DNA of 64,000 nucleotides, taken from contig NC_019757.1 in assembly GCF_000317535.1 (NCBI RefSeq), positions 1,587,001 to 1,651,000 on the forward strand, given 5' to 3'. Below the pieces are notes generated by a model, which was not told the origin of the DNA, searched no databases, and worked only from the letters and a program-made list of their open reading frames with translations. The DNA is from Cylindrospermum stagnale PCC 7417 (GTDB lineage: Bacteria; Cyanobacteriota; Cyanobacteriia; Cyanobacteriales; Nostocaceae). Shown piece after piece: positions 12,982 to 16,176 of the stretch (its first letter is position 1; each line of letters begins with the position of its first letter). A program made the translations under genes and the position numbers.

Positions 12982-13230
12982 TTAAAGGGGCGGCTAACTT
13001 GTTCTAGCTCCCCCATCTCATCAATCAAGAAATCTCCAGCCCAAAGCGCCGACATTCTGTTGTACCTGTGGGCTGATTTCACTCCCGCAATGGCAATTAG
13101 TGCCCCTGAGCAATTAACCAGTTGAGGGCTACTTGAGCAGGGGTACAACTATATTTTTTACTAATATTCTAGAATCAAGAGATTAATATATTAACTTTTT
13201 GCACTTACTCTTGACTAAATAATCGTTTGA
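12982..13230 (-). pseudogene. aldo/keto reductase 3'-end remnant
   Basis: The minus strand here is clearly homologous to the 3' end of the intact aldo/keto reductase at 15211-16176. It reads SKKYSCTPAQ, a damaged NWLIAQ stretch, IAIAGVK and EMGELEQVSRPF, against TPAQVALNWLIAQG, IPIAGVK and EVGELEQITRPW in the intact gene. Nucleotide similarity extends to about 13230 (TTTTTGCACTTACTCTTGACTAAAT against TTTTTGCATTCCCTCTTGACTAAAT, compared by eye). Small indels break the frame, and only the last quarter of the gene is present. It marks one side of the AAA/TOPRIM cassette. Confidence 0.85.
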
Positions 13231-13402
13231 TGAATTCGACTATTTATAAACAAAATATTAAGTAAGGTGTGTTACGGCACAAACTAAAAATAGCGAAAAT
13301 ACAGTACAGATTATCGTAGACAACAATGTTGTGCCCTTACCTGTGTACTTCATTTACCTGAAAAATGCTGTAAATAGACTGGGAACGAGACAAAAGTGAA
13401 CT

Positions 13403-13435
13403 AGATACCCGACTTCTCTAAGAAGTCGGGTATCT
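13403..13435. repeat. 15-bp perfect hairpin, dispersed repeat
   Basis: AGATACCCGACTTCT pairs perfectly with AGAAGTCGGGTATCT around a three-base loop. A near-identical hairpin is at 46758-46790. It lies 100 bp before the AAA ATPase start and could act on its transcript, though the sequence is a common Nostoc repeat. Confidence 0.8.
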
Positions 13436-13534
13436 CAACCTATAGTGGTCATATCTTTTCCAAGACCAAGAACATACAATGGGTATATCCCATCAAAAAG
13501 TTCTTCTCTTCCTACTCCGGGGAATAGTTTCATT

Positions 13535-14644
13535 ATGCTCCAAAGATTATATGTACATAACTTTAGATGTTTAGAAAACTTTGAACTGACCATGAAAGAG
13601 ATGCCATCTGTTCTCTTGATTGGAAAAAATGGTGTGGGTAAATCAACTATTGCCACTGCATTAGAAGTATTTCAATCTATTGGTAGAGGTATCAATAGAT
13701 TGCGCGAACTTGTTAAGTCTAAAGATTTTGCTCGTGGCAGGTCTGATGTTCCCATTCGATTAGAAATGGAGGTATTACTTAAGGGTAAAATATATAAATA
13801 TATTCTTGCTTTGGAGTTGCCAGAAAAATTTAAAGAGCTTAGAGTCTTTGAAGAACAATTGTTAGTTGAAGGAGAACCAATTTACTCTCGAAAAGAAGCT
13901 CAAGTTACTCTTTATACTACCTCAAAAAATCGTGAGGCTCAGTTTATGGTAGATTGGCATCTGGTAGCCCTCCCAGTCATTCAAGAGCAATCTGAAACTG
14001 ATCCGCTTCATATTTTCAAAACTTGGCTTGCTCACATGATTATTTTAGCCCCTATTCCCAGTTTGATGACTGGAGACTCTAACGGTGAAACTTTGGAGCC
14101 AAAGCGAGAGGGTTCAAATATCGGGGAGTGGTTTTCTGGTTTACTCGGTCGCTATCCTGCGGCCTACAGAGAGGTTGAAAAATATCTCCGAAAAGTTATG
14201 CCAGACTTTCAAGATTTTCTCAATGAACTTATCGGTAAAGACTTCAAAAATTTGATTGTTCAGTTTGAAGCAAATAAGGCAAATTTGAGTGTTGATTTTC
14301 AAGACTTATCTGATGGCGAAAAATGTTTTTTCCTTTGTGCTATCGTATTAGCCGCTAACAAATTTTATGGGCCAGTTTTTTGCTTTTGGGATGAGCCTGA
14401 CAACTATCTCTCCATATCAGAAGTTGGACATTTTATAACATCCCTGCGACGCTCATTTAAGAATAGCGGGCAAATTCTAGTGACTTCTCATAATCCTGAA
14501 GCAATCCGAAAATTTTCCAATGAAAATACATTTGTACTTGATCGAAAAAGTCACTTAGAGCCAACTTTGATTAGACTGCTTAGTGAAATGTCTGTTCAGG
14601 GCGATCTGATCAATGCTTTGATTTGTGGCGATATAGAACTATGA
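13535..14644 (+). CDS. AAA/ABC-type ATPase, OLD/RecF-like, of a two-gene cassette
   Basis: A 369-residue ATPase of the AAA_15/AAA_21 (RecF/SMC/OLD-like) class. It begins MLQRLYVHNFRCLENFEL, as these proteins do, with Walker A GKNGVGKST (30-38), ABC signature LSDGEK (258-263), Walker B FCFWDE (D286, E287) and the H-loop TSH (H319). Between them lies a variable helical insert of about 200 residues. I chose ATG 13535 with GGGGAA upstream; the frame is open to GTG 13445, but that extension has no homology and includes a repeat. The stop overlaps the next start as ATGA. No HIP1 site occurs in the cassette. By analogy with PARIS AriA, split OLD and similar pairs it is a likely defence ATPase; this is inference. 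Confidence 0.75.
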   Translation: MLQRLYVHNFRCLENFELTMKEMPSVLLIGKNGVGKSTIATALEVFQSIGRGINRLRELVKSKDFARGRSDVPIRLEMEVLLKGKIYKYILALELPEKFKELRVFEEQLLVEGEPIYSRKEAQVTLYTTSKNREAQFMVDWHLVALPVIQEQSETDPLHIFKTWLAHMIILAPIPSLMTGDSNGETLEPKREGSNIGEWFSGLLGRYPAAYREVEKYLRKVMPDFQDFLNELIGKDFKNLIVQFEANKANLSVDFQDLSDGEKCFFLCAIVLAANKFYGPVFCFWDEPDNYLSISEVGHFITSLRRSFKNSGQILVTSHNPEAIRKFSNENTFVLDRKSHLEPTLIRLLSEMSVQGDLINALICGDIEL

Positions 14645-15132
14645 GCATCAATAAGTTTGTACCGCACATTCTTGTCTTGCCAGAAGATGATGCTAATCGC
14701 CAGATTGCCAACGGATTTATTCAGGATTTAAACCTGAATGAGCGTGCTATTCAAGTCCTTCCAATTGCTGGTGGTTGGAAAAAAGTTGTGGATAAATTCA
14801 TAGAGGATCATGTCAATGTAATGCGACAATATCGAGAAACAAGGATTGTTTTACTTATTGATTTTGACGAGTGTGAAGATAGATTAAGTTATGTAGAAAG
14901 TCGTATTCCAGAGGATCTAATAGATAGAGTATTCGTTTTGGGAGTACAATCTAACCCAGAGAGCCTAAGGAGAGACATCCAAAAGAGTTTGGAGACTATT
15001 GGAGAAACTCTTGCAAATGATTGCGCTGAAAACAGAAATGAATTATGGACACATCCTCTTCTCATACACAATCAACCTCAGTTAGAACAGATGATTTTAT
15101 CTGTTAAACCCTTTCTGTTTAACAATAAATAA
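14641..15132 (+). CDS. TOPRIM-like partner of the AAA ATPase
   Basis: A 163-residue protein translated from an ATG overlapping the ATPase stop by four bases, so the two are almost certainly coexpressed and coupled. It starts IKxFVPHILVLPEDDANRQI-like (seen: FVPHILVLPEDDANRQIANG), then VLPIAGGWKKVVDKF, then a strong acidic strand VLLIDFDECEDR (D74, D76). An early Glu (E15) after a beta strand and a later DxD after another strand is the arrangement of TOPRIM nucleases, although E-D replaces the usual E-G. The remaining half is helical and Asn/Glu-rich. I do not recognise a named family; it is shorter than AriB or the OLD TOPRIM domain. Function inferred from fold pattern and context. Confidence 0.65.
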   Translation: MSINKFVPHILVLPEDDANRQIANGFIQDLNLNERAIQVLPIAGGWKKVVDKFIEDHVNVMRQYRETRIVLLIDFDECEDRLSYVESRIPEDLIDRVFVLGVQSNPESLRRDIQKSLETIGETLANDCAENRNELWTHPLLIHNQPQLEQMILSVKPFLFNNK

Positions 15133-15171
15133 CCTATTTATAAAAATACTAAAGTTGCAAAACATAAGATA

Positions 15172-15199
15172 CCCCCAACCCCCCTTAAAAAGAGGGGCT
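15172..15199. repeat. CCCCCAACCCCCCTTAAAAAG-type palindrome
   Basis: CCCCCCTTaaaAAGAGGGG-like imperfect palindrome, a very common cyanobacterial intergenic repeat, between the convergent cassette and reductase genes. A related copy is at 50520-50548. It may act as terminator for both sides. Confidence 0.6.
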
Positions 15200-15210
15200 A
15201 AGATAAATGA

Positions 15211-16176
15211 TTAATTTAGCCAAGGGCGGGTAATTTGCTCTAACTCCCCAACTTCATCATCAGTCAATCTCCAACCCAAAGCGCCGACATTTTGTTTTAC
15301 CTGTTCTGCGGTTTTGACTCCCGCAATGGGAATTACATTTCCCTGAGCAATTAACCAGTTAAGCGCAACTTGTGCAGGAGTGCGATAGCTTCGCTCGCCG
15401 CAGGCATCGCATTTTTCACCAATACTCTGAAGTAAAGAAATCACAGGGTTAAGTTTTTGCATTCCCTCTTGACTAAATTTTTTGTCTATGCTTCTAGCTC
15501 CGGTGGGTTTGCTTGCCCCTGTATACTTACCTGTGAGCAATCCCTGAGCTAAAGGACTATATGCCAAAATAGTCACACCCAACTCGCGGGCAGTTTGGAA
15601 AATACCGTTACTTTCTATTTGGCGATTTAGCAAAGAATAACGTACTTGGTTTACCGCTAAAGGTACTCCACGGTTTGCCAAAATTTGGTGTACATCTCGC
15701 ATTTGTGCTGCCGAGTAATTACTTACACCAACTGCACCAATTCTACCCCGCTTCACTTCATCAGCGAGGGTATTCATTAAAGTTTCTTGACTTAAAAAGA
15801 AGGCAAAGGGCCAATGCACTTGGTAAAGTTCAATTCGCTCTAATTGTAGGCGTTTGAGACTATCTGTTAAGGCATCAGAGACAGATTTCGCATTAAATCT
15901 CCAAGGTACGGGGCCAAATTTCGTGGCAATTTGGACTTTTTGAGGTGTCTGTTTCATGAATTGCCCCAAAAATTCTTCGCTTTTTCCCATCCCGTAAATT
16001 TCCGCCGTGTCAAAGAAGTTAACACCAGCTTCTAAAGCGGCTGTAAAAGCTGCTTGCAACTGTTCTGGCCCATAGCCATCGCCATAATTCCAAAAGAGTT
16101 TATCGCCCCAAGCCCAAGTACCAATGCAAAGGGGTGTAACTGCTGGGCCATTTCGCCCCAAGGTGATGGTTTCCAT
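15211..16176 (-). CDS. aldo/keto reductase
   Basis: A 321-residue NADPH-dependent oxidoreductase of the AKR superfamily with a TIM-barrel fold. The catalytic tetrad is visible: D56 and Y61 (FFDTAEIYG), K86 (IATKFG) and H121 (QVHWP). The cofactor-binding end has PIAGVKTAEQVKQN. Substrate is not predictable. Around residue 256 the sequence EKCDACGERSYRTPAQ contains about seven residues that are absent from the decayed second copy (SKKYSCTPAQ) and encoded by GC-rich repeat-like DNA, so a 21-bp in-frame insertion seems to have occurred here. A remnant of this gene's 3' end lies 2 kb away, beyond the AAA/TOPRIM cassette. Confidence 0.92.
   Translation of the reverse strand: METITLGRNGPAVTPLCIGTWAWGDKLFWNYGDGYGPEQLQAAFTAALEAGVNFFDTAEIYGMGKSEEFLGQFMKQTPQKVQIATKFGPVPWRFNAKSVSDALTDSLKRLQLERIELYQVHWPFAFFLSQETLMNTLADEVKRGRIGAVGVSNYSAAQMRDVHQILANRGVPLAVNQVRYSLLNRQIESNGIFQTARELGVTILAYSPLAQGLLTGKYTGASKPTGARSIDKKFSQEGMQKLNPVISLLQSIGEKCDACGERSYRTPAQVALNWLIAQGNVIPIAGVKTAEQVKQNVGALGWRLTDDEVGELEQITRPWLN

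Follow-up and report, generated by a model that had tools for sequence, protein, structure and literature searches.

A Divergent ABC-ATPase/TOPRIM-Like Gene Pair in Cyanobacteria

Within a 64,000-nucleotide stretch of the Cylindrospermum stagnale PCC 7417 genome (hereafter the window: bases 1587001–1651000 of contig C2, in a genome of 7.6 Mb), a gene for an ABC-type ATPase, designated A here, overlaps a gene for a small TOPRIM-like protein, designated B. Their joint distribution supports the view that A and B form a conserved, mobile two-gene unit. The ABC-ATPase/TOPRIM kind of system is already known, and the pair fits an unmodeled, divergent branch of it, alongside PARIS (a class 4 OLD system), AbiL, MADS, and HEC-01 (a candidate defense system of PADLOC); its closest traceable kin appears to be HEC-01 (DUF4276), reached via an intermediate family, B2. 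New here are the observations that the ratio of nonsynonymous to synonymous substitution rates (dN/dS) of B exceeds that of A in 10 of 10 locus pairs, and that mainly B is replaced at one shared locus.

On balance, and with some hesitation, we favor an anti-phage role for this mobile module, with A as sensor and B as effector nuclease. The combination of an ABC ATPase with a TOPRIM protein recurs as a defense architecture in OLD, Gabija, retrons, AbiL, MADS, and PARIS (excerpts of PMC12409363, PMC10568477, and PMC12839542); in PARIS, AriB is set free once AriA has sensed phage proteins, and AriB then cleaves tRNA (excerpt of PMC12409363). By analogy, A would be a sensor and scaffold that binds ATP, multimerizes, and holds B inactive, until a trigger, probably a phage product, leads A to release or activate B. 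B would be a metal-dependent nuclease of the TOPRIM type that relies on E15, D74, and D76 to cut nucleic acid, possibly tRNA (as AriB) or DNA (as GajA), and the infected cell would be stopped. The fold, nuclease activity, sensing, and anti-phage role that we ascribe to the pair are inferences.

Pairing, Spread, and Decay of A and B

Both genes lie where the initial annotation had placed them, with the stop codon of A overlapping the ATG of B (table 1). The intact Walker A, LSDGEK signature, Walker B, and H-loop that it read in A are present as GKNGVGKST, LSDGEK, FCFWDEPD, and TSHN, with core residues invariant in the 23 aligned sequences including the window's. An alternative upstream GTG start of A is unlikely, because its aligned relatives begin with MLQRLY or MIQRLY. 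A single copy of B was found genome-wide.

In a survey of 386 genomes of the same phylum, B was matched in 26, the window's included, from 16 of 142 genera; whole-genome searches missed the copies of the B2 family described below, and this count therefore covers the close family only. B is full-length in 21 of these genomes and present only as pieces in five (G306, G308, G354, G157, and G072). An intact A lies directly upstream in 18 of the 21, the exceptions being G231 (no A found), G298 (a piece of A only), and G087 (a truncated A), and is also retained in two of the five genomes with a broken B (G354 and G157). Genome survey and contig scan together gave 24 full-length B genes for alignment, the window's included, and 21 of them directly follow an intact A, a pairing far beyond chance. 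The 4-base ATGA overlap is kept in 19 of the 20 intact pairs outside the window, the other, L002, having a 2-base gap; these pairs comprise 16 loci from the genome survey and four from the contig scan, with L003, which is G193's contig, counted once. The ATGA-linked pair thus recurs elsewhere, as the initial annotation had asked of a neighborhood search. Identity to the window's proteins is 75–87% for A and 45–73% for B. All four loci from the contig scan, which covered close relatives only, are cyanobacterial, as are all named relatives of A and B; the profile searches covered this phylum. A match of B to a 602-residue protein (L057) was dropped as chance: it reads as what we take to be a response-regulator/GGDEF/EAL-like protein.

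The spread of the pair is patchy, and A or B is broken or missing in 8 of the 26 genomes. Both observations bear on whether it might be a housekeeping or repair accessory, in which A would operate at DNA ends, as RecF/Rad50-type ABC ATPases do, with B as a processing nuclease or regulator. Such a role would suit the matches of the window's A to SMC_N, RecF, and Rad50 profiles or chains and the presence of the pair in a shared Hsp70-like locus of five genomes (see below), and there is a precedent in the archaeal OLD protein Cran1, which acts in the cell cycle rather than in defense (excerpt of PMC12796447). We nevertheless consider it quite unlikely, given that 360 of the 386 genomes, the same-genus G030 included, have no match, that A or B is damaged or absent in the genomes just counted, and that the pair is replaceable at the window's site.

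Among 72,556 plasmid records, one contains B and two contain A, all cyanobacterial (the replicon is unassigned for many draft-genome copies). The Dolichospermum plasmid CP070234.1 (L147:5001-6110), typed as conjugative, carries A at 85% identity near a VapC toxin gene, and no B was found in the stretch of this plasmid around A. B was not found in 50,697 phage records at E<=0.01, and no copy was confirmed in IMG/VR; one phage record holds a remote ATPase, at 22.6% identity. Overlapping genes in a replaceable site, a copy of A beside a toxin gene on a conjugative plasmid, and a patchy spread with decay that suits selfish upkeep as well as defense might all be expected of a toxin–antitoxin-like or plasmid-maintenance pair, where A or the A–B complex would restrain a toxic B to the benefit of the carrier DNA's persistence. 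Against this stand the rarity of both genes in plasmid records and the pattern of decay: at some loci A is intact and B broken (L053 and L055), at others B is intact and A broken or missing (L036, L050, and L052), a poor fit to a simple toxin–antidote pair. We consider this explanation unlikely.

The Putative Fold of B

The E...DxD arrangement that the initial annotation recognized in B holds across the family (table 1). In TOPRIM domains the E sits at the end of strand 1 and the DxD at that of strand 3, and the alignment, together with a low-confidence model, gives B this layout. The structure models of B are poor (predicted local distance difference test, pLDDT, 60–65) and resemble several alpha/beta folds; it should be noted that in this structural comparison folds outside the listed matches, AriB for example, carry no information. 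No TOPRIM chain was among the matches of PDB profile searches with B, B2, or HEC-01B as query. B has no convincing match in Pfam, NCBIfam, or PADLOC, and its identity with a known Pfam or NCBIfam family was rejected, as the matches are weak and chance-like (one of the 24 members reaches OLD-like TOPRIM 1 at 0.081). Structure prediction, proposed initially as one check, recovered the arrangement of E and DxD on their strands at low confidence and did not single out a fold; a TOPRIM fold is likely, though weakly modeled.

The resemblance to several alpha/beta folds would also accommodate a B that has a Rossmann-like fold, lacks nuclease activity, and serves as an adaptor or inhibitor, with A acting alone or with host proteins. 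The C-terminal part of B has four residues invariant in the 24 aligned sequences, C128, W136, H138, and N144, and to our knowledge these correspond to no TOPRIM feature. We judge this very unlikely, however: E15, D16, D74, and D76 are among the positions common to all six B and five B2 sequences of a joint alignment, and the sole copy without D76 (D76V, at L034:10781-12486) adjoins an A that carries an insert of 38 residues and is probably decaying. An extra fragment of A lies upstream of that copy, at about L034:1969–2157. An effector nuclease remains the role we prefer for B.

B2 as a Stepwise Link between the Pair and HEC-01

Matches of A below 30% identity at E<=1e-8 in 156 genomes amount to six loci (23–28% identity), and all six of these next-nearest ATPases are followed by a protein of 173–190 residues, the family that we name B2. 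One such pair is encoded in the window's own genome, outside the window (G000:C2, C2:2468364; L149:4001-5654). In searches run unfiltered, with E scaled to 10,000 proteins, the B profile finds all six B2 proteins (2e-6, 1e-4, 1e-4, 0.0085, 0.083, and 0.41) and none of 306 shuffled or reversed controls, the B2 profile finds 21 of the 24 B proteins, the best at 0.001, against 5 of 1224 controls, the best of these at 2, and the cyanobacterial HEC-01B profile finds five of the six B2 proteins (best 6e-5) and 1 of 306 controls. An alignment of B with B2 by hhalign gives 90.9% and 1.2e-6. A profile scan of the six B2 loci with default filters flags three at E<=1, and the B2 copies were absent from the results of whole-genome searches with P0002 and A2. 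On the HEC-01 side, one B2 is matched by the PADLOC HEC-01B models at 9e-6, another has no match at 0.01, and hhalign of B2 with HEC-01B is weak (14.6%); a direct profile comparison of HEC-01B with B was not significant (hhalign probability 0.2%). Sequence comparison thus supports each successive link in the chain from B through B2 to HEC-01B, but not the direct one between its two ends. HEC-01B members match DUF4276 (four of four scanned, two above the curated cut-off), and one HEC-01B model is matched in 39 of 292 genomes, so that B2 would link this branch to a widespread candidate. No B2 was found on plasmids.

Comparison with Known Systems

HEC-01 has the same organization, an ABC ATPase followed by a small partner that has an E and a DxD, and occurs in the same phylum; in 19 of the 20 loci read, the two genes lie next to each other or overlap. 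The window's A matches HEC-01A at 5e-21, and all 23 A members match it, a likeness that is not specific, as AbiLi scores as well. B, in contrast, reaches at best 0.0022–0.0064 with three HEC-01B models (2 of the 24 members each at E<=0.1; the window's B 0.0025) and has no DUF4276 match, its kinship running through B2 only. The B2 pairs, with the nearest other ATPases found and a small partner significantly homologous to B, differ in an IETW motif and a CED start, where B mostly has PEDD and PE or PR.

PARIS likewise places an ATPase and a TOPRIM-like protein in two adjacent genes, and the window's A matches AriA at 3e-17, but this is weaker than its AbiLi and HEC-01A scores. No AriB model matches the window's B at E<=1, nor the 24 B members at 0.1 (HMMER filters drop most matches above about 0.1), and B is smaller than AriB. 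AbiLi is the best single PADLOC match of the window's A (2e-22), whereas B has no AbiLii/RloB match (AbiLii at E<=1). For MADS, mad3 matches A at 6e-20 (PADLOC) and mad4 matches 3 of the 24 B members (best 0.0014), but A scores 41.7 bits where the NCBIfam MAD3 cut-off is 420, and any third gene recurs with the pair at no more than 5 of the 23 loci.

A split OLD or PARIS was consequently rejected as the family name. What stands of the initial reading of a split OLD/PARIS-like pair is an OLD/AriA-type ATPase with a partner of TOPRIM-like layout; its "candidate new defense system" is too strong for what looks like a divergent branch of a known candidate type, although the B family indeed lacks a convincing model in the libraries searched. 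Current defense callers would probably miss the B family. It adds an unmodeled branch, cyanobacterial so far, to the growing class of ABC-ATPase/TOPRIM conflict modules, across which targets and triggers are mostly unknown. HEC-01 is mentioned once in the excerpt of PMC12724379, HEC is listed under unknown in that of PMC10855318, and PMC9252829 does not mention HEC. Open-access literature on HEC-01, DUF4276, AriA/AriB, MADS, and cyanobacterial defense included no study of these proteins among the matches listed.

Evolution of B Relative to A

The dN/dS values are 0.21–0.79 for B and 0.07–0.28 for A in the ten locus pairs, which were hand-picked and share members and are thus not independent. 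Five genomes carry the pair beside the same genes for what we read as coiled-coil and Hsp70-like proteins, and four of them also beside the same AAA (again our reading) and 124-residue genes. At this shared locus, G153 and G155 are 94% identical in the 124-residue gene, 93% in A, 72% in B, and 95% and 91% in the next two genes downstream. In steps of 150 columns, identity falls to 83% toward the end of A, stays low across most of B (71, 68, and 71%), and has recovered by the end of B (91%); two other dips (79 and 45%) are intergenic. The B sequences strongly reject a tree joining G153 and G155 (approximately unbiased test, p-AU 3e-65), whereas A groups them (support 91/94, not starred), the alternative not being rejected (p-AU 0.22). 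The conflict is one-sided, in that B rejects L046+L049 and A does not reject L048+L049, and the choice of groups followed inspection of the data.

The simplest reading of these sequences is that most of B was replaced by recombination at the G153/G155 locus; relaxed constraint on B alone is disfavored because the dip is too sharp for it. A constant ATPase with an exchangeable effector would fit both the faster evolution and the replacement of B, and phage selection may lie behind the latter. Rather doubtful, in our view, is the more specific proposal of a constant ABC-ATPase chassis with phage-driven diversification of B (by target or inhibitors), in which B alleles of at least two types (IDFD and IDRD) would be swapped in place between a near-constant A and flanks, with specificity on the effector side. 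If the replacement does reflect selection, related B alleles on a near-identical ATPase would constitute a natural swap experiment on which half sets specificity.

Genomic Site and Neighboring Genes

The pair occupies a variable site between a helicase gene and a reductase gene. The same-genus G030 aligns with the window up to 13223 and again from 15195, with 2.8 kb of other DNA between; in G386 some 4.6 kb of other DNA separates the helicase from the reductase, and in G394 these genes lie side by side. The cargo of G030 (L078:4544-6203) includes a 293-residue protein and differs from that of the window. The reductase sequence noted on both sides of the pair consists of an intact gene, presumably for an aldo/keto reductase-like protein, and a degraded 3′ end (table 1), which over about 158 bases shares 81% identity with the right-hand copy in the window. 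This degraded copy lies left of the cargo in both the window and G030, and the partial duplication is therefore probably older than their split, the cargo having turned over since. A replaceable site supports a mobile accessory role, not by itself one in defense.

Table 1. Features of the A–B Pair and Its Site (Window Coordinates)
Feature	Position	Strand	Evidence
Gene A, ABC-type (OLD/AriA/HEC-01A-like) ATPase, 369 aa	13535..14644	+	ORF, family profiles, alignment
Walker A GKNGVGKST, A residues 30–38; residue 34 variable in relatives	13622..13648	+	Alignment
ABC signature LSDGEK, A residues 258–263; invariant in 23 aligned sequences	14306..14323	+	Alignment
Gene B, TOPRIM-like protein, 163 aa	14641..15132	+	ORF, alignment, predicted structure
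ATGA overlap, B start inside A stop codon	14641..14644	+	Kept in 19/20 other intact pairs
B E15-D16, directly after modeled strand 1; invariant 24/24	14683..14688	+	Alignment, model
B D74-x-D76 (IDFD), end of modeled strand 68–75; D74 24/24, D76 23/24	14860..14868	+	Alignment, model
Cargo segment without counterpart in G030, G386, G394	13224..15194		Genome alignment
Degraded copy of reductase 3′ end, imperfect direct repeat of 15224–15478	12988..13220	-	Alignment
Intact aldo/keto reductase-like gene, right border of variable site	15211..16176	-	ORF, alignment

Note.—aa, amino acids; ORF, open reading frame.

The neighboring genes do not decide the question of defense. The 23 loci have 162 neighbor proteins besides A and B, and the 143 that reach 120 residues were scanned at 1e-15; 54 defense families were matched, few of the proteins strongly, in a scan that covered these loci alone. 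Among the matches listed (25 families), IetA models hit four neighbor proteins, which may be the four recurring AAA neighbors, mad2 hits three, and GajB, a type IV restriction enzyme, a DRT helicase, mad3, Cas12f/Cas12u, and PDC-M37B hit one each. The absence of the HIP1 octamer from both genes, remarked on initially, is real and not significant (62 octamers in 64 kb give a probability of about 0.21 for none in 1.6 kb). Upstream of A, an inverted repeat (13404–13434) has a pattern that recurs at two other places in the genome, and just 3′ of B lies a short dispersed repeat (15150–15211), similar copies of which are numerous both in this genome and in G386.
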